Shown here one piece after another: positions 16,123-54,432 of a stretch of 64,000 nucleotides of DNA. Each line of letters opens with the position of its first letter. The stretch's first letter is position 1. Source of the DNA: Candidatus Fonsibacter ubiquis (GTDB lineage Bacteria > Pseudomonadota > Alphaproteobacteria > Pelagibacterales > Pelagibacteraceae); contig NZ_CP024034.1 in NCBI RefSeq assembly GCF_002688585.1, forward strand, positions 735,501 through 799,500. Reading direction: 5' to 3'. A program made the translations under genes and the position numbers. The notes under the pieces are model-generated. The model saw only the letters and a list, made by a program, of their open reading frames with translations. It was not told the origin of the DNA and did not search any database.

Positions 16123-16524
16123 ATGAAATATAAAATTAATAAATCTGAAACCGAATGGCAAAACATTTTGTCTGAAAGTGAATACAAGATTCTTCGTCAA
16201 GAAGGAACGGAACGTGCATTTACAAATATGCTTTGTAATGAAAATAGAGATGGTAATTATTATTGTAAAGGCTGCAATTCAAAATTATTTAGCTCTAAAA
16301 TGAAATTTGACAGCGGTACAGGTTGGCCATCTTTTTTTGAATCGTATAAGAATGTTTTTGATACAAGCACAGATTATAAATTAATTTATCCTAGAACTGA
16401 ATATCATTGCGCTAGATGTGGTGGTCATCATGGACATTTATTTGATGACGGTCCAGAACCCACAAATAAAAGATACTGCAATAATGGAACTGCTCTAAAG
16501 TTTGTTCCGGAAAAGGTAGATTAG
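16123..16524 (+). CDS. msrB: Peptide-methionine (R)-S-oxide reductase
   Basis: This 133-residue MsrB has both zinc CxxC pairs (Cys48/Cys51 and Cys96/Cys99), the SGTGWPSFFE loop, HHGHLFDDGPEPT, and the catalytic Cys119 in RYCNNGTALKF. The enzyme reduces methionine R-sulfoxide in proteins with thioredoxin as the final donor. No signal peptide is present, so it is cytoplasmic, in contrast to the exported MsrA encoded nearby. It is followed after 4 bases by a thioesterase-like gene on the same strand. Confidence 0.96.
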   Translation: MKYKINKSETEWQNILSESEYKILRQEGTERAFTNMLCNENRDGNYYCKGCNSKLFSSKMKFDSGTGWPSFFESYKNVFDTSTDYKLIYPRTEYHCARCGGHHGHLFDDGPEPTNKRYCNNGTALKFVPEKVD

Positions 16525-16922: not shown

Positions 16923-17492
16923 TTACCTCCAAACTTCTTTTAGTCTCTCCATTCTTCTGCAACCAATTACATAAGCAAAATAATCTGATGGATTTTTTTT
17001 GTAATACTGCTGATGATAGTCTTCAGCTGGATAAAAATTTTTAAATTCTGTGAAAGAGGTTTTAATTTTATTAATTTTAATTGATTTTAACTCTTTAATT
17101 GACTGATCAATTAATTTTCTTTCTTGATCGTCTTGATAAAATATAGCGGAGGCATAGGATTTACCTCGATCACAAAATTGACCATAACCATCATACGGGT
17201 CGATATTTACCCAGAAATTTTTAAGTAGTTCTGAATAAGTTATTTTTTTAGGATCATAAGAAACTTTTACTGTCTCTATGTGACCTGTGCGACCAGTAAT
17301 AACTTGTTGGTAAGTAGGATTTGGGACTTTTCCACCGCTATATCCAGAAATTACAAAATTTACTCCCTCTAATTTATCAAATACTGGCTCCATACACCAA
17401 AAACAACCACCAGCAAAATATGCAAATTTTTCTTTGGAATAAATACTTTGATTAAAAAAAAGTAAAAAAAATATTAAAAATAATTTTTTCAA
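16923..17492 (-). CDS. msrA: Peptide-methionine (S)-S-oxide reductase, exported form
   Basis: This 189-residue MsrA has GGCFWC at residues 28-33 with catalytic Cys30, the GYSGGKVPNPTYQQV block and EDYHQQYYKKNP. A clear signal peptide (KKLFLIFFLLFFNQSIYSK) precedes the domain, so it should act in the periplasm, where it reduces methionine S-sulfoxide. The start is TTG at 17492, overlapping the glaH stop by 4 bases (TTGA); the signal peptide supports this start. It is the last gene of the lysE-azlC-azlD-glaH-msrA run and is convergent with the thioesterase gene. Confidence 0.92.
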   Translation of the reverse strand: MKKLFLIFFLLFFNQSIYSKEKFAYFAGGCFWCMEPVFDKLEGVNFVISGYSGGKVPNPTYQQVITGRTGHIETVKVSYDPKKITYSELLKNFWVNIDPYDGYGQFCDRGKSYASAIFYQDDQERKLIDQSIKELKSIKINKIKTSFTEFKNFYPAEDYHQQYYKKNPSDYFAYVIGCRRMERLKEVWR

Positions 17493-18406
17493 TTATAAAA
17501 AACTCCACGCTGACGCATAAGTTCTCGCTGTAATTCTTTATTTTCAATAAATGGTTGTCTTCCATGTAACATAAAATAATTATTTGAGAAAATTGAGCAT
17601 CCTGGTGGTAATTTAAAAATAATCTTATTTTTACTACTTTCTAAAGATTGAGAGAGATTATTTAGAAATAAACCTTGTTCTAAACTTTGCGGTTCAGGGA
17701 ATTGATCAATGTAAGAAATGATTGGCTTACCATCCTTATCTTTAAAGAATACAGGGTGAGTTACTTTATAATCTACATTCTTACTTTTTGGTGAGCCCCA
17801 AATAAAATTCATTTGTCCAACTGGATGATTAAAAAATTTATTACATTCTTCCCAATCATCTAAGTGAAGTAATACACTTTCGCCACCTTGGACATTTTTT
17901 TCCATTATCTTGGTCATTAAAAGCCAATCTGTTTTTTCTTTGACGTAAGTTCCATCGGTATGAAGATCTAACCTCTTATAAGCTTTCCTTAAATATGAGT
18001 CGCTACTATCAACATGCTTCACTTCAAATCGAGCATAGTATTTGCCTGTCATCGCGTCAAAATTTGGAAGTCCCACCAAGTGAGTGAAGGCTGTGGAAAG
18101 TTTAACTAAAAATTTATCATCAGTTACCTCTGGGTTAAACTTTTTAGGCCCAACTACAAATGCACCTCGATTTCTATCGGTTAATATTTCTTTAAAAAGA
18201 TTTTTAATTTTATTTTCAAAAATTTTATTACATTCATCAGCAACAAAAAATCTCAAAAATGGTTTAAGTTCTAGATCCTGAACATCGATCGATGAAAATT
18301 TTTTTATAAGTTCATCAATGGCAGCTTGTGAAATATTTATTGAAATTAATCTTTTGCTTTGCGGATGTGATGTGATTTCTAATCCTTTTATATTTTCGAA
18401 TGACAT
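17489..18406 (-). CDS. glaH: Glutarate 2-hydroxylase (CsiD/GlaH family)
   Basis: This 305-residue Fe(II)/2-oxoglutarate dioxygenase resembles E. coli CsiD (GlaH) along its length by recall: AVAHL-like FTHLVGLPNFDAMTGKYYARF, VDSSDSYLRKAYK, HTDGTYV with iron ligands His149 and Asp151, LLHLDDWEE, YIDQF and the third ligand His281 in MLHGR, ending in ELMRQRG. GlaH converts glutarate to L-2-hydroxyglutarate with release of succinate and CO2, a route from lysine to the TCA cycle. The usual partner lhgO is not in this window. It abuts azlD with no spacer and overlaps msrA. Confidence 0.9.
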   Translation of the reverse strand: MSFENIKGLEITSHPQSKRLISINISQAAIDELIKKFSSIDVQDLELKPFLRFFVADECNKIFENKIKNLFKEILTDRNRGAFVVGPKKFNPEVTDDKFLVKLSTAFTHLVGLPNFDAMTGKYYARFEVKHVDSSDSYLRKAYKRLDLHTDGTYVKEKTDWLLMTKIMEKNVQGGESVLLHLDDWEECNKFFNHPVGQMNFIWGSPKSKNVDYKVTHPVFFKDKDGKPIISYIDQFPEPQSLEQGLFLNNLSQSLESSKNKIIFKLPPGCSIFSNNYFMLHGRQPFIENKELQRELMRQRGVFYN

Positions 18407-18739: not shown

Positions 18740-19435
18740 TTACCTTATAAAAATAAAATAGGAAATTATTCCAGAAATAGTTCCAGCAAGTAATACTGAC
18801 CAATCTGGGGTTATTAAAAAAAGAATTGGTGCCAAAATAACTGATAAAAAAACAGTAGCTACAATATGTGATTTATTTAAAACCGAAACAATCATGCACA
18901 TAAAATAAATTGGATTTAAAAATATTAAAGCAACAAAAACTTTAGCACTTAAAATACCAGCGGCATAAAATCCTATAACAGTAGCAAGTGTAGATAAAAT
19001 CCAAAGCGTCGATCCAAGACCTAAAAAAAAACTAAAACGGCTTTCCTTTGTAATTTTATCATAATTAGAAAGCATATAAACCCAACTAGTGACAGCAATA
19101 AAATGTGCCAAAAAATAATAATGCCATCTCGGTCTACTTTTTTGTCTAATCACTGGAACAAGGTTTACTGTCATGGGATACAATCTGGCATTCGTCAAAA
19201 AAACTGCTATTAAAATATTTAGTAAAGTCCCATTTACTATTAAAGTTTCAGCCATGACTACCTGGCCAGGTAAAGCAAAACCAATCAAAGTCGATAAAAA
19301 ACTTTGTATTGCGTTTAGTCCAGAATTTTTAAAGAGAGCACCTAAAGCAAAAAAACTTGCCGCAAGACTAATTCCTGGGATACCAAGCGCTGCGAAACAC
19401 CCCTTTTTAAAATTATTATCAAAGGTATTATTCAT
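18740..19435 (-). CDS. azlC: AzlC family amino acid exporter subunit
   Basis: This 231-residue polytopic protein has the AzlC features: FKKGCFAALGIPGISLAASFFALGAL at the N-terminus, a QSFLSTLIGFALPGQVVMAE segment and the NARLYPMTVNLVPV motif. With AzlD it forms an exporter of branched-chain amino acids and analogues. It overlaps lysE by 4 bases and is 3 bases from azlD. An exporter pair beside a LysE protein and a glutarate hydroxylase is an uncommon grouping, discussed in the findings. Confidence 0.88.
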   Translation of the reverse strand: MNNTFDNNFKKGCFAALGIPGISLAASFFALGALFKNSGLNAIQSFLSTLIGFALPGQVVMAETLIVNGTLLNILIAVFLTNARLYPMTVNLVPVIRQKSRPRWHYYFLAHFIAVTSWVYMLSNYDKITKESRFSFFLGLGSTLWILSTLATVIGFYAAGILSAKVFVALIFLNPIYFMCMIVSVLNKSHIVATVFLSVILAPILFLITPDWSVLLAGTISGIISYFIFIR

Positions 19436-20049
19436 AAATTAATTTTGGTACTTAAAATTTTATAGGCAAGAAATAATAGGGCACATCCTGATAATCTACT
19501 TATTAAATTTGGATAATTTTTTAAAAAAATTGCTATTCGACTTGAAACCCCAGCATAAATTGTTAAAAAAAAAAAATCTAAAAATACGTGTGTTGTCATT
19601 AAAATAACAAAATGAAGTATAAAATTATTATCTGGATTTAAAAAAGTTGGGAACATTACAACAAAAAAAACAATTGCTCCTGGGCTAAATAAAGCAGAAA
19701 TAAATCCATCTTTAAACAAATCAAAAGCTGATCGAGTTCCAAATGTCTTATCAATAGTAACGCTGGTTTTTCTTATTAAAAACTTTATTGCTAAGTAAAT
19801 TAAATATAATCCGCCTATCCATTTAAAAATATCTAAAATTTGTGGATTAGGCTTCATCAAAGCATAAACTCCAAATGTTGCTAAAATCATCTGAATTGCA
19901 TTCGCCGATACATCTCCCAAGCCAGTCCATAGACTTTTTGGAAAACCATAATTCATAGAATTAGTTATAATTAAAATTCTTTGTGGTCCTGGCGTGATAA
20001 ATAAAATAGTAATTAATTGAACAAAAAGTAGATAATTATTTGGAATCAT
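19432..20049 (-). CDS. LysE family translocator
   Basis: This 205-residue membrane protein has the LysE/RhtB start FVQLITILFITPGPQRILIITNSMNYG, the GLGDVSANAIQMILATFGVYAL second helix and a C-terminal hydrophobic hairpin. The usual TPGPN motif reads TPGPQ here. Family members export lysine, arginine, threonine, homoserine or other amino acids. It is the first gene of the minus-strand operon, divergent from the methionine operon, whose promoter begins about 20 bases upstream of its start codon. The transported substrate is unknown. Confidence 0.85.
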   Translation of the reverse strand: MIPNNYLLFVQLITILFITPGPQRILIITNSMNYGFPKSLWTGLGDVSANAIQMILATFGVYALMKPNPQILDIFKWIGGLYLIYLAIKFLIRKTSVTIDKTFGTRSAFDLFKDGFISALFSPGAIVFFVVMFPTFLNPDNNFILHFVILMTTHVFLDFFFLTIYAGVSSRIAIFLKNYPNLISRLSGCALLFLAYKILSTKINL

Positions 20050-20068: not shown

Positions 20069-20097
20069 TTGACTATTTATCTTAATAAAGTTATTTA
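20069..20097 (+). promoter_or_regulatory. Predicted promoter of the met operon
   Basis: TTGACT at 20069-20074 and TATTTA at 20092-20097 are separated by 17 bases, which fits a sigma-70 promoter with a good -35 and a weak -10. The expected start point near 20104 coincides with the first base of the riboswitch P1 stem, as is common for SAM-II RNAs. It reads toward metF and lies within 50 bases of the divergent lysE start. This is a sequence-only prediction. Confidence 0.55.
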
Positions 20098-20103
20098 ATA
20101 TTT

Positions 20104-20156
20104 AGCGCTGAGTTATTTCTACTTGCGAGCGCTTTATAAATCCAGCTAAAGCGAAG
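20104..20156 (+). ncRNA. SAM-II-like riboswitch aptamer
   Basis: AGCGCT at 20104-20109 pairs with AGCGCT at 20128-20133 to give the P1 stem. The enclosed loop begins with UGA, as in SAM-II, and the 3' side carries AUAAAU, two bases and AGCUAAA (20136-20150), which match the conserved downstream strand that folds back to form the SAM-binding pseudoknot. The arrangement closely follows the known Sargasso Sea metX SAM-II RNA from memory. It precedes metF-metE-metZ, so SAM sensing is expected. SAM-V has a related core, but the P1 and loop layout favour SAM-II. I could not fold the pseudoknot in detail. Confidence 0.85.
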
Positions 20157-20181
20157 CATTAATAACCGCCGCTTTATCTGG
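20142..20181 (+). promoter_or_regulatory. Antiterminator pairing of the met riboswitch
   Basis: CCAGCTAAAGCG at 20142-20153 can pair with CGCTTTATCTGG at 20170-20181 with 11 of 12 positions matched. The first arm is the 3' strand of the SAM aptamer and the second contains the loop and part of the 3' arm of the terminator hairpin. SAM binding would hide the first arm and free the terminator; without SAM this pairing would block it. The logic is inferred from the overlap of the arms. Confidence 0.7.
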
Positions 20182-20191
20182 TGGTTTTTTT
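20164..20191 (+). terminator. Riboswitch-controlled intrinsic terminator before metF
   Basis: AACCGCC at 20164-20170 pairs with GGTGGTT at 20180-20186 (one G-U pair) around a 9-base loop. T residues run from 20185 to 20191, so the T-run overlaps the end of the 3' arm. The hairpin lies 40 bases before the metF ATG and within the leader, which fits a regulated terminator and not an end-of-gene signal. It competes with the antiterminator at 20142-20181. Confidence 0.75.
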
Positions 20192-20230
20192 AGAAAAAAT
20201 TTCAAAAAAACCTTTGTTTAAAAAAAGATT

Positions 20231-21118
20231 ATGAACAAAGATTTAAATATTAGTTTTGAATTTTTCCCTGCTAAAGATGAAGCTGGCCACGAAAATCTAT
20301 GGCACAGTCTCGAAAAGCTTGAGCAATTTTCACCTAAATTTGTCTCAGTTACTTTTGGTGCTGGCGGAGGTGAAAGGGATAAAAGTGATTTCCTAGTTAA
20401 GAAAATAAGTAAAAAATCAAATACTCCAGTTGCGGGGCATCTTACTTGTGTTGATATGAGTAAGAATGAAATCAACTCAATTGCACTTGATTGGTTAAAC
20501 AATGGAATAAATAAAATTGTCGCCTTACGCGGGGATGTTAGAAAAAAAGATTCAAAATATATGCCCCATAAGAATGGTTATGAAAATGCAGCGGATATGG
20601 TGAACGGATTAAAAAAATTAGGTAATTTTCACATTGCAGTTGCAGGATATCCAGAAAAGCATCCGGACTCAGAAAATGAAACTAAAGACCTGGAAAATTT
20701 AAAGAATAAAGTTGATCAAGGAGCTGATAAGATTATTACTCAGTTTTTTTTTAATGATGAAAAATTTTTAAAATTTAGAGATAAAGCAATATCTCTAGGA
20801 ATTAAAATCCCAATCATTCCAGGTATTCTTCCAATAGATAATTTTGAAAAAATAAAGAATTTTAGTAAAAAATGTGGAACTTCAATTCCAATTTGGGTTG
20901 AAGAAGAATTTGCTGGCTTAGAGAATGATAATGAAGTTCAAAAAATTGTAGGGGCAAGCATTGCGTGTGACTTAGTTAAAAAATTACAATTAGAAGGTGT
21001 TAATGAATTTCATTTTTATACACTTAATAAATATGAGCTTAGCTACGCAGTATGCAAAAGATTGATTGCAGATAAAACAAAAATAAAAATTAACCAACTT
21101 AAGGAGTTAAACGTATGA
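20231..21118 (+). CDS. metF: Methylenetetrahydrofolate reductase
   Basis: This 295-residue TIM-barrel flavoprotein has the MetF pattern: ISFEFFPAKDEAG at the start with the catalytic Glu in FEFFP, VSVTFGAGG, HLTCVDMS, the ALRGDVRKK loop and QFFFNDEKFLKF. It reduces 5,10-methylene-THF to 5-methyl-THF, the methyl donor used by MetE encoded next. The ORF overlaps metE by 4 bases (ATGA), so the two are translationally coupled. Expression is probably shut down by SAM through the upstream riboswitch. Confidence 0.95.
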   Translation: MNKDLNISFEFFPAKDEAGHENLWHSLEKLEQFSPKFVSVTFGAGGGERDKSDFLVKKISKKSNTPVAGHLTCVDMSKNEINSIALDWLNNGINKIVALRGDVRKKDSKYMPHKNGYENAADMVNGLKKLGNFHIAVAGYPEKHPDSENETKDLENLKNKVDQGADKIITQFFFNDEKFLKFRDKAISLGIKIPIIPGILPIDNFEKIKNFSKKCGTSIPIWVEEEFAGLENDNEVQKIVGASIACDLVKKLQLEGVNEFHFYTLNKYELSYAVCKRLIADKTKIKINQLKELNV

Positions 21119-23397
21119 CAATTAAAGTTAATTGTATTGGATATCCAAGAATAGGACCGAAAAGAGAATTAAAGAATGCTTTAGAAAAATATTGGAAATC
21201 TGAAATTTCTGAGGGCGATTTATTAAAGTGCGCTAGTGAATTAAAAAAAAATAACTGGCAAACACAAAAAGATAATGGGGTTGATTATATTTGTTCAAAT
21301 GATTTTTCATTTTACGATCAAGTTTTAGATACAATTTGCTTAGTAGGTTCAATTCCTGAAAGATATAAACATAAAGACCATGAAGTTTCTTTTAAAACTT
21401 ATTTTGCGATGGCACGTGGCTCTCAAACAAAAGATTTGGATGTTCCTGCGCTTGAAATGACAAAATGGTTTGACACTAATTATCATTACTTGGTGCCAGA
21501 ATTTTCAAAAAATCAAAAATTTAAGTTGAGTTCAAATAAACCCTTTGATGAATTTGATGAGGCTAAAAAATTAGGCTTTAATACAAAGCCAATTATTTTA
21601 GGACCTCTTACTTTTTTAAGTCTTGGAAAAACTACAGATGAGACTTTCAAAAGTATTGATTTATTAGACAATTTACTTCCAGTTTATGCAGAAATCTTAT
21701 CTGTCTTAAATAAGAAAGGTGCTGAATGGATACAAATAGATGAGCCTATTTTAGTAAAAAATCAAAATGCTGATTTTACTAAACTAATAAAAAAAACTTT
21801 AAATCAATTAAAAAAGTTTGCAGGTTCATCTAAAATTATCTTAACAACTTACTTTGAAAAACTAGACTCTGAAATTGAAAAAGAAATTTTAGAAAGCGAT
21901 GTAGATGGAATTCATCTTGATTTAATTCGTGGAAAAATCTCAAATATAAATTCTTTAAGAGATATTAATAAAACAATTTCTATTGGAATTATTGATGGAA
22001 GAAATATTTGGAAATCGGATGTTAATAAAAAAATTGAGCAAGTACTAGAGTATTCAAAATTTATTAAAAATTTATGGATCTCCTCTTCTTGTCCATTATT
22101 GCATACTCCTTATGACTTAGGATTAGAGACTAAAGTTCCAGAAAAAATTAGGAAGTGGCTTTCATTTTCTAAACAAAAACTAATCGAACTTAATCATATT
22201 AAAATTTCATTAAACAAAGGTAATAATGAAATCAAAAATTACTTAGATGAGAATAAGAAGGATATCGCAAGTAGAGTAACATCTGAGTTAATTCATGATG
22301 ATAAAGTTAAACAGAGAGCTAAAAATATTACAACACAGATTTTAAATAGAAAATCCAACTTTATTAAAAGATCTGAAATACAAACTAATCTGTTTAAATT
22401 ACCTTTGTATCCCACAACAACTATTGGATCTTTTCCTCAAACGTCCGACGTAAGAAATGCCAGAGCTAAATTTAAGAAAAATGAATTAAGCTTAAAAGAA
22501 TATGAAGATTTTCTTAAAACAAAAACAATCGATGCCATTAAAAAACAAGAACAAATTGATATTGACGTTATTGTCCATGGAGAATTTGAAAGAAATGACA
22601 TGGTTGAATACTTTGGTGAACAACTTAAGGGATTTACTTTTACATCTAGTGGCTGGGTTCAAAGTTATGGTTCAAGATGTGTAAAACCACCAATTATTTT
22701 TGGAGATGTTTCTCGTCCAGAGTCTATGACAGTGCAATGGTCGAAATTTGCTCAAGAGCAAACCAATAAAATTGTTAAAGGCATGTTAACTGGTCCAATA
22801 ACAATTTTACAATGGTCTTTTGTTAGAGATGATCAGCCAAGAAAAGATACAGCATTACAAATTGCTTTTGCAATAAGAGATGAGGTTGAAGATCTTGAAA
22901 AAAATGGAATTAATATGATTCAAATTGACGAACCTGCTTTGAGAGAAGGTTTGCCTCTAAAGAAAAATGATTGGAAACAATACTTAGATTGGGCTGTTAA
23001 AGCTTTCCAAATTTCTGCCGCTGTTGCTAAAGATGAAACTCAAATACACACACATATGTGTTACGCTGAATTTGAAGATATTATTGATGCAATTGCTGCC
23101 TTAGATGCTGATGTTATCTCCATAGAAACATCAAGATCGAGAATGGAATTATTAAAAACATTTGAAAAGTTTAAATATCCAAATGAAGTGGGGCCTGGTG
23201 TTTATGACATCCATTCTCCTAGGGTTCCGAATAAAAATGAGATGAAAGAACTGATTCAAAAAGCATCAAAGTTAATCGATAAGAAAAGAATTTGGGTAAA
23301 TCCAGATTGCGGACTTAAAACTAGAGGCTGGCCGGAAACAATAGCTGCACTTGAAACAATGGTTCAGGCGGCTAAGGAATTAAGAACTGAAAAATGA
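21115..23397 (+). CDS. metE: Cobalamin-independent methionine synthase
   Basis: This 760-residue protein has the full two-domain length of MetE. The N-terminus reads IGYPRIGPKRELKNALEKYW; the C-terminal catalytic half starts with TTIGSFPQTSDVRNAR and holds the zinc ligands in IHTHMCYAEFEDI (His and Cys) and VNPDCGLKTRG (Cys). It transfers a methyl group from 5-methyl-THF polyglutamate to homocysteine without vitamin B12, which suits an organism that does not make or import cobalamin. It overlaps metF and metZ by 4 bases on each side. Confidence 0.97.
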   Translation: MTIKVNCIGYPRIGPKRELKNALEKYWKSEISEGDLLKCASELKKNNWQTQKDNGVDYICSNDFSFYDQVLDTICLVGSIPERYKHKDHEVSFKTYFAMARGSQTKDLDVPALEMTKWFDTNYHYLVPEFSKNQKFKLSSNKPFDEFDEAKKLGFNTKPIILGPLTFLSLGKTTDETFKSIDLLDNLLPVYAEILSVLNKKGAEWIQIDEPILVKNQNADFTKLIKKTLNQLKKFAGSSKIILTTYFEKLDSEIEKEILESDVDGIHLDLIRGKISNINSLRDINKTISIGIIDGRNIWKSDVNKKIEQVLEYSKFIKNLWISSSCPLLHTPYDLGLETKVPEKIRKWLSFSKQKLIELNHIKISLNKGNNEIKNYLDENKKDIASRVTSELIHDDKVKQRAKNITTQILNRKSNFIKRSEIQTNLFKLPLYPTTTIGSFPQTSDVRNARAKFKKNELSLKEYEDFLKTKTIDAIKKQEQIDIDVIVHGEFERNDMVEYFGEQLKGFTFTSSGWVQSYGSRCVKPPIIFGDVSRPESMTVQWSKFAQEQTNKIVKGMLTGPITILQWSFVRDDQPRKDTALQIAFAIRDEVEDLEKNGINMIQIDEPALREGLPLKKNDWKQYLDWAVKAFQISAAVAKDETQIHTHMCYAEFEDIIDAIAALDADVISIETSRSRMELLKTFEKFKYPNEVGPGVYDIHSPRVPNKNEMKELIQKASKLIDKKRIWVNPDCGLKTRGWPETIAALETMVQAAKELRTEK

Positions 23398-24569
23398 AGA
23401 AAACAAAACTTGGAACTAACACAAATTTAATTCGCGGAGGATTAAATAGAAGTCAATTTAATGAGACCTCTGAAGCGTTATTTCTAACATCAGGATTTGT
23501 TTATGATAGCGCTGAGCAAGCTGAAGCTATTTTTAAAGGTAGTAAGAAAGGTTTTCAGTATACTCGTTACTCAAATCCTACCGTTGAAACTTTTGAAAAA
23601 AGGTTAGCACTACTCGATGGTTCTGAAGATTGTTTTGCAACAGCAAGTGGAATGGCTGCTGTATTCTTTTCATTAATGTGTCAATTAAGAGCTGGAGATC
23701 ATTTAGTTTCATCCGCTGCTTTATTTGGGTCTTGCAAAGAAATCGTAAAAAATATTCTCCCTCGATATGGTATTGAAGTAACATTTGTGGATGGAAAAAA
23801 TTTAAATGAATGGAAAAAAGCTATAAAAAAAAATACAAAAATTTTTTTCTTTGAAACTCCTTCAAATCCACTTTTAGAATTAGTTGATATTAAAGCAGTT
23901 TGCAATATTGCTAAAAAACATAGAATTAAAACTGTTGTAGATAACATTTTTGCAAGTCCTGTTCTGCAAAAGCCAGTTTCACTGGGTGCAGATATTATTG
24001 TATATTCCGGTACAAAACATATTGATGGGCAAGGAAGAGTACTTGGTGGGGCTATATTATCCTCAAAAAAGTTTAAGGAAAATGTACTTAAGCCTTTTTT
24101 GAGACATACCGGTCCATCTATTAGTCCTTTTAATGCCTGGGTTTTGTTAAAGGGTTTGGAAACTGTCAAAATTAGAGTAGAGGCACAATCAAATGCTGCT
24201 TTAGAAATTGCAGAATTCTTAAATAAACATTCTAAGATTGAAAAAGTATTTTATCCATTTTTAAAAAACTTTTCTCAATACTCCCTTGCTAGAAAACAAC
24301 AAACCCTTGGCGGAACAATTTTAAGTTTTAAAATTCAAGGTAAAAAGAAAGAAGCCTTTAAATTTATTAATAAATTAAGAATATTTGATATCTCTAATAA
24401 TTTAGGTGACACAAAATCTATTGTAACTCATCCAACTACAACTACCCATCGTGTTTTAAGTGAAAAAGATAGATTATCTCTTGGTATTACTGAAAATTTA
24501 ATAAGACTTTCTATTGGCTTAGAAACAGTTTCTGATCTTAAAAAAGATATTACTGCAGCGTTAAAATAA
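23394..24569 (+). CDS. metZ: O-succinylhomoserine sulfhydrylase (MetZ type)
   Basis: This 391-residue PLP enzyme of the Cys/Met metabolism family has the RYSNPTVETFEKRLALLDG block, the SGMAAVF segment, ETPSNPLLELVDI and Lys208 in VYSGTKHIDGQG as the PLP Schiff-base residue. It makes homocysteine from an activated homoserine and sulfide, feeding MetE encoded upstream. The family also includes cystathionine gamma-synthase and O-acetylhomoserine sulfhydrylase; the alphaproteobacterial look and length favour MetZ. It is the last gene of the SAM-controlled operon and ends 3 bases before a convergent gene. Confidence 0.88.
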   Translation: MKKTKLGTNTNLIRGGLNRSQFNETSEALFLTSGFVYDSAEQAEAIFKGSKKGFQYTRYSNPTVETFEKRLALLDGSEDCFATASGMAAVFFSLMCQLRAGDHLVSSAALFGSCKEIVKNILPRYGIEVTFVDGKNLNEWKKAIKKNTKIFFFETPSNPLLELVDIKAVCNIAKKHRIKTVVDNIFASPVLQKPVSLGADIIVYSGTKHIDGQGRVLGGAILSSKKFKENVLKPFLRHTGPSISPFNAWVLLKGLETVKIRVEAQSNAALEIAEFLNKHSKIEKVFYPFLKNFSQYSLARKQQTLGGTILSFKIQGKKKEAFKFINKLRIFDISNNLGDTKSIVTHPTTTTHRVLSEKDRLSLGITENLIRLSIGLETVSDLKKDITAALK

Positions 24570-53951: not shown

Positions 53952-54070
53952 TGGAGAAACGTTAAAAAAATATAATTAATTAAATATATTTGTTCTTATT
54001 TTGTTCTAAAAAAAATTATTAAATATTAATTACAATAATTAGATAAAATTTTAGGGAAAATTAGATAATT

Positions 54071-54432
54071 GCCAGTTAGTCTGTAAGCTGGGTTCTGTCA
54101 TTGAAAATGGTAATTTATCTAGGTCTACTGTCGCCAATAAACTCGAGCAACCAACCCAAGCAACTCACCCAAGATTAGGCTAGATTTAAATAAATTTAAA
54201 TCATGTTACTTCTATTTGGTCTTGCTCCCAGTGGGGTTTTCCATGCGGTTTTTGTTGCCAAAAACCCGGTGCGCTCTTACCACACCTTTTCACCCTTGCC
54301 TTGATAAGGCGGTTTATTTTCTGTGGCACTATCCCTGAGGTTACCCTCGCCAGCTATTAGCTGGCACTGTTATCTTGTGGAGCCCAGACTTTCCTCTTTG
54401 AAAATATCAAAGCTACCATTCAACTAACTGGC
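54071..54432 (-). ncRNA. rnpB: RNase P RNA, bacterial type A
   Basis: The 362-base RNA is closed by a perfect 10-bp P1 (GCCAGTTAGT at 54071-54080 with ACTAACTGGC at 54423-54432). Read on the minus strand it holds the universal blocks GAGGAAAGTCTGGGCTCC, AGGGTAACC, GTGCCACAGAAA, GGTAAGAGCGCACC, CCACTGGGAGCAAGACCAAATAG and ACAGAACCCAGCTTACAG. It trims the 5' ends of tRNA precursors with the RnpA protein. The gene lies between an amidase gene and mraZ, with a consensus promoter just upstream. Confidence 0.97.

Follow-up and report, generated by a model that had tools for sequence, protein, structure and literature searches.

A probable SAM-II-type riboswitch of a SAR11 subtype before the metF-metE-metZ operon of Candidatus Fonsibacter ubiquis

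The leader at positions 20104-20191, which precedes the metF-metE-metZ operon of Candidatus Fonsibacter ubiquis, is very probably a transcriptional OFF riboswitch of SAM-II type, of a subtype characteristic of SAR11. The element belongs to a known class as a divergent SAR11 subtype, and what is new about it is the metF-metE-metZ context and a substitution in the binding pocket. Its presence would put metF-metE-metZ under transcriptional control by SAM in LD12/IIIa SAR11, a dominant freshwater and brackish lineage, where the Rfam cutoffs are silent. A literature search, mostly outside subscription literature, found no account of a SAM-II element controlling these three genes in LD12 or IIIa. 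Coordinates refer to the window, the whole analysed stretch of 64,000 nucleotides (positions 735501-799500 of the closed 1,160,202-base genome), and leader features lie on its forward strand; the sequence fits strain LSUCC0530, which belongs to LD12, SAR11 subclade IIIb, and has a genome of 1.16 Mbp (PMC6018831).

In the mechanism proposed here, the aptamer strand CCAGCUAAAGCG would, when SAM is scarce, pair with a downstream terminator along its loop and 3' arm, and the antiterminator so formed would allow RNA polymerase to continue into the operon. At high SAM levels, the pseudoknot made of P1 and P2 would close on the ligand during transcription and sequester GCUAAAGCGA, the terminator hairpin would then fold, and transcription would end near 20191. 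Comparison of related sequences shows the core of the aptamer with its helices P1 and P2, the two competing structures (antiterminator and terminator) and the gene context. We infer SAM as the ligand, together with the direction of switching, from homology and gene context; for the ligand, this caution follows from a score under the cutoffs of both SAM-II models in Rfam and from the G in place of U10.

Anatomy of the leader and its operon

The aptamer opens with the 5' strand of P1 (AGCGCU, 20104-20109), which pairs with an identical 3' strand (AGCGCU, 20128-20133), and both strands display compensatory changes in an alignment of 66 leaders. Loop L1, the third strand (20110-20119, placed from leader alignments), holds pocket positions U10 (here G, at 20112), U11 (20113) and U12 (20114), in the numbering of PMC3764141 and PMC6061858, as well as the P2 5' strand UUUC (20116-20119). 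Pocket bases U20, U21, G22 and C23 (UUGC, 20123-20126) contribute the pseudoknot pairs G20125-C20146 and C20126-G20145, and both the UUGC and its partner GC are invariant in the 66 leaders. The ligand-binding and P2 3' strand, CCAGCUAAAGCGAAG (20142-20156), contains G42, C43, U44, A45, A46 and A47 at 20145-20150, with the shorter aptamer strand GCUAAAGCG at 20145-20153 and the 3' strand of P2, which is short in this aptamer, at 20153-20156.

The intrinsic terminator (20164-20191) was called by a scan for which shuffled sequences lead one to expect 0.2 terminator-like sites, and consists of a stem of 7 bp (20164-20170/20180-20186; 8 bp if G20171-U20179 is counted) and a T7 run at 20185-20191; a 7-bp stem and a T-run had been specified in the preliminary description. 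That description had further proposed that the 5' antiterminator arm, CCAGCUAAAGCG at 20142-20153, can pair at 11 of 12 positions with the 3' arm, CGCUUUAUCUGG, at 20170-20181. The pairing is indeed present, with C20146/U20177 as its sole mismatch, and exceeds chance when compared with shuffled terminator loops (p = 0.0065) or with random AT-rich loops in a fixed register (p = 0.0009). The minimum-energy fold of 20104-20191, a check also named at the outset, corresponds to the antiterminator state (P1 plus antiterminator, -22.9 kcal/mol), and the terminator state is weaker by about 3 kcal/mol.

A promoter had been placed at 20069-20097, and remains plausible as a candidate: the -35 sequence TTGACT (20069-20074) and its spacing upstream of P1 are kept among leaders of the genus, and after a 17-nt spacer there follows a weak -10 sequence, TATTTA (20092-20097). 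A sigma-70 scan of the window leader called no promoter. Transcription would be expected to start at about 20104.

Downstream of the leader lie metF (methylenetetrahydrofolate reductase, 20231-21118, TIGR00676, 317.6 bits), metE (cobalamin-independent methionine synthase, 21115-23397, TIGR01371, 1090 bits) and metZ (O-succinylhomoserine sulfhydrylase, 23394-24569, TIGR01325, 560 bits), all on the forward strand and above the cutoffs of their NCBIfam models. The metE start overlaps the metF stop by four bases, as does the metZ start the metE stop; metZ is the last gene of the operon, and the gene after it lies on the opposite strand. Elsewhere in the vicinity, an RhtB-type amino-acid exporter gene (19432-20049, reverse strand) is transcribed divergently to metF; close by lie two genes for methionine sulfoxide reductases, msrB (16123-16524, forward) and msrA (16923-17492, reverse), the latter adjoined by a GlaH-like glutarate dioxygenase gene (17489-18406, reverse; 431 bits, above cutoff). 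The window also contains a bacterial class A RNase P RNA (54068-54431, reverse; 301.8 bits).

The proposal that this single aptamer governs the whole methyl and sulfur branch, and thereby the synthesis of methionine from homoserine, proved too strong. The operon is devoid of a homoserine acyltransferase gene; a metX-like gene (447 bits, below the curated value of 500) is situated at contig positions 152400-153458, with no copy of the element near it in the same genome, and its presence led to rejection of the idea that metX had been lost. In addition, a second SAM-II-type element occurs in this genome outside the window (G000:C1:1004662-1004712; locus L053, about 1501-1551), in the U10 form and with a short terminator of its own. 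It lies immediately upstream of a metW-like gene and gloB, and no metX lies between them.

Conservation and distribution among SAR11 relatives

At Rfam gathering scores no SAM family matches the window. A permissive search places SAM_alpha (RF00521) at 20095-20166 with 16.3 bits, as compared to a gathering score of 36, and does not report RF01726 for the window; the top-scoring matches at permissive E-values (MIR812, STnc260 and LhrC) were dismissed as chance. For SAM-V (RF01826), neither the window at the gathering score nor 20085-20185 at an E-value of 10 gives a match. Genome-wide, RF00521 returns nothing at an E-value of 0.001, and the best SAM-V match, at 17.5 bits, was set aside as sub-threshold noise. 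Relatives in the genus likewise fall below the RF00521 gathering score, the metF leaders of genera g9 and g12 score 23.5-29.8 bits, and only one of 20 relatives across the order, a metX-type leader, passes it; the SAR11 subtype is largely invisible to Rfam cutoffs.

The preliminary description had named in advance the lack of a covariance-model hit as grounds for refutation, and the leader does fail the Rfam thresholds; that outcome was overturned by an independent covariance model, R2, constructed from 30 SAR11 leaders. Because none of the 30 comes from the genus of the window, circularity is removed. R2 assigns the leader 71 bits and an E-value of 2.8e-17 (its E-values being rough), with the next match in the window at 19.6 bits, and together with covariation in P1 and P2 this match backs the original recognition of a SAM-II-like aptamer before metF-metE-metZ.

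That covariation was evaluated in alignment A3, which comprises 66 distinct leaders, and in which 97.7% of P1 cells and 98.5% of terminator cells are paired. For P1 and P2 taken together, 98.3% of cells are paired, with 30 compensatory cells and four pairs changed on both sides; none of 500 shuffles scored as high, and slid controls were at most about 50% paired. The P2 pair equivalent to 20118-20154, for instance, changes from U-A to A-U, G-C or G-U in 12 leaders. The arms of the antiterminator, whose mutual exclusion with the terminator had been proposed from one sequence, also covary in relatives: 89.9% of cells are paired, with 11 compensatory cells versus 4.7 in shuffles, none of 500 shuffles as high and slid controls at most 55% paired, and natural double changes appear in leaders L114 (AAAUAG/CUAUUU) and L123 (AAAACG/CGUUUU). 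Since relatedness among leaders inflates the shuffle test, more weight falls on the controls with a slid register and on the natural double changes. The 17 metF leaders alone display zero antiterminator covariation, which is limited by a nearly invariant aptamer strand and became informative only once other genera were added. In 58 of the 66 leaders the antiterminator is predicted to be more stable than the terminator (median 2.9 kcal/mol), so that a switch free of ligand would default to ON.

Homologues of metF are found in 11 of 13 genomes of the genus and, with good scores, also in genera g9 and g12 and in a single g2 genome, and the 17 metF leaders share the same aptamer and terminator. 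A model built from those leaders, R1, detects the element in 378 of 397 genomes of the family and 358 of 397 of the order, a prevalence of at least 90% of sampled SAR11 genomes. The genes downstream of the elements that it finds are metF, metY-like, bhmT-type and metX-like, the names bhmT and metX being given by likeness to published leaders and by eye, with no domain search. The order metF-metE-metZ is kept in three genera, and a lone element precedes metF in the genus and two related genera; the g2 metF has no element directly upstream. At two loci of one g2 genome (G120, L123 and L160) the element precedes metY-like, metF and metE genes in a row, so that more than one arrangement of operon has brought metF and metE under such a switch.

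A SAM-V aptamer is also present in 16 of 20 relatives tested across the order, in leaders of bhmT and metY type; 149 cases of a tandem SAM-II/SAM-V arrangement have been described (PMC9481103). The window leader has no SAM-V aptamer between its terminator and the start codon. As a separate observation, metX-type leaders of genus g4 (L107, L109-L112, L125-L128 and L133) are devoid of a GC-rich terminator and instead contain a downstream segment resembling CUCACAAUUCA and complementary to UGAAUUGCGAG in the aptamer, which suggests, from sequence complementarity, a different expression platform.

The altered pocket and alternative explanations

Thirteen bases of SAM-II (U10, U11, U12, U20, U21, G22, C23, G42, C43, U44 and A45-A47) have been reported as completely conserved (PMC3764141). 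The window keeps 12 of them and replaces U10 with G, a point missing from the preliminary description. G10 is found in all ten intact metF leaders of the genus, in 23 of the 66 SAR11 leaders and, by a pattern search whose reversed control gave zero matches, in 32 of 99 family genomes distributed over g1, g3, g5 and g6; its occurrence in g3, g5 and g6 led to rejection of the substitution as a trait of LD12 only. The genome of the window itself contains both forms, G10 before metF and U10 before the metW-like gene and gloB. A base called invariant in SAM-II is thus G in many SAR11 genomes, which amounts to a natural experiment on ligand recognition.

Because near-identical aptamers differ at this position, the substitution is probably tolerated, and may perhaps tune affinity; a changed ligand is possible and is not favoured. 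It seems unlikely that G10 defines a variant riboswitch with a usefully different ligand preference or affinity, such that the metF (G10) and metW (U10) leaders would sense different ligands or different ranges of SAM. A stronger proposal, that an element of the same anatomy has been retargeted to S-adenosylhomocysteine or another adenosyl compound and is not a SAM sensor, is more improbable still. That proposal draws on the contact of U10 with U44, the partner of the SAM adenine (in SAM-V the equivalent U8 hydrogen-bonds U47, the reader of that adenine; PMC6061858), on the uniformity of G10 in the genus, and on precedents for re-targeting by small pocket changes, such as a spermidine variant of a SAM aptamer (PMC10853860). 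Against it, G and U are exchanged between otherwise near-identical aptamers before the same bhmT-type gene (G in L100, U in L142), and both g3 and g5 contain the two variants; the bases opposite the sulfonium, U11 and U21, are retained, and methionine-synthesis genes lie downstream of both forms. In addition, the N1-H of G could replace the N3-H of U as donor to O4 of U44.

Slightly less credence again is given to a reading on which SAM would, in the manner of SAM-V, act on metF translation (or on transcription and translation alike), with the hairpin no more than an ordinary terminator or stabiliser. Some SAM-II riboswitches do regulate translation (PMC9373788); this leader, however, has no SAM-V match and no Shine-Dalgarno-like sequence overlapping P2, its metF start lies 39 nt beyond the T-run, and the complementarity of loop to aptamer is kept across the order, a pairing that a plain terminator would not need. 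Chance resemblance, with an unrelated leader followed by a constitutive terminator, could appeal to the scores below Rfam gathering, but it is hardly credible and already refuted by the independent R2 match and by conservation and covariation over hundreds of genomes. A transcriptional switch of SAM-II type best accommodates these observations.

Comparison with known systems

The SAM-I (S-box) leaders of Firmicutes, with their terminators and antiterminators, follow the same OFF logic in the same pathway, and their aptamer fold is unrelated. The closest class is SAM-II itself (SAM_alpha, RF00521), described as the metA element (Corbino 2005, PMC1273637), which shares with the window P1, the pseudoknot P2, the core GAxUUA...UUGC...GCUAAA, a downstream terminator, methionine genes and a transcription start expected just before P1; the window differs from it in its low score, a shorter P2, G at U10 and metF-metE-metZ as the target.

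Within SAR11, the nearest counterpart is the bhmT tandem of Candidatus Pelagibacter ubique, represented by L104, one of the 30 leaders in R2, which matches the HTCC1062 bhmT leader by coordinates. Its SAM-II aptamer is homologous to that of the window and is followed by the same terminator, the loop of which, CGCUUUAG, is complementary to the aptamer sequence CUAAAGCG; this feature of the SAR11 subtype is present in the window at 11 of 12 positions. Unlike the tandem, the metF leaders have no SAM-V aptamer, and hence a single mechanism, and precede another operon. The HTCC1062 SAM-II aptamer is reported to bind SAM with a KD of 1.2 uM (PMC5069961); in the full-length tandem the SAM-II domain is unresponsive to SAM in vitro, the isolated domain responds, and the linker has been blamed for the silence (PMC11508383). 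For L104, pairing between that linker and GCUAAAGCG of the SAM-II aptamer is predicted at a probability of 0.99, and folding models thus make the antiterminator a likely cause of the silence. As the linker holds the antiterminator arm, switching would have to take place while the RNA is being transcribed, not in an equilibrated RNA, and equilibrium tests may look negative.

SAM-V (RF01826) has the same pseudoknot fold and pocket as the window element (PMC6061858); the window differs in having no RF01826 match, no 3' strand that occludes a ribosome-binding site, and a terminator. The SAM-II riboswitch of Sinorhizobium meliloti, as reported in PMC9373788, resembles the window in preceding metZ with a predicted Rho-independent terminator, whereas metZ there stands alone and the riboswitch is a SAM-II of Rhizobiales, outside SAR11.
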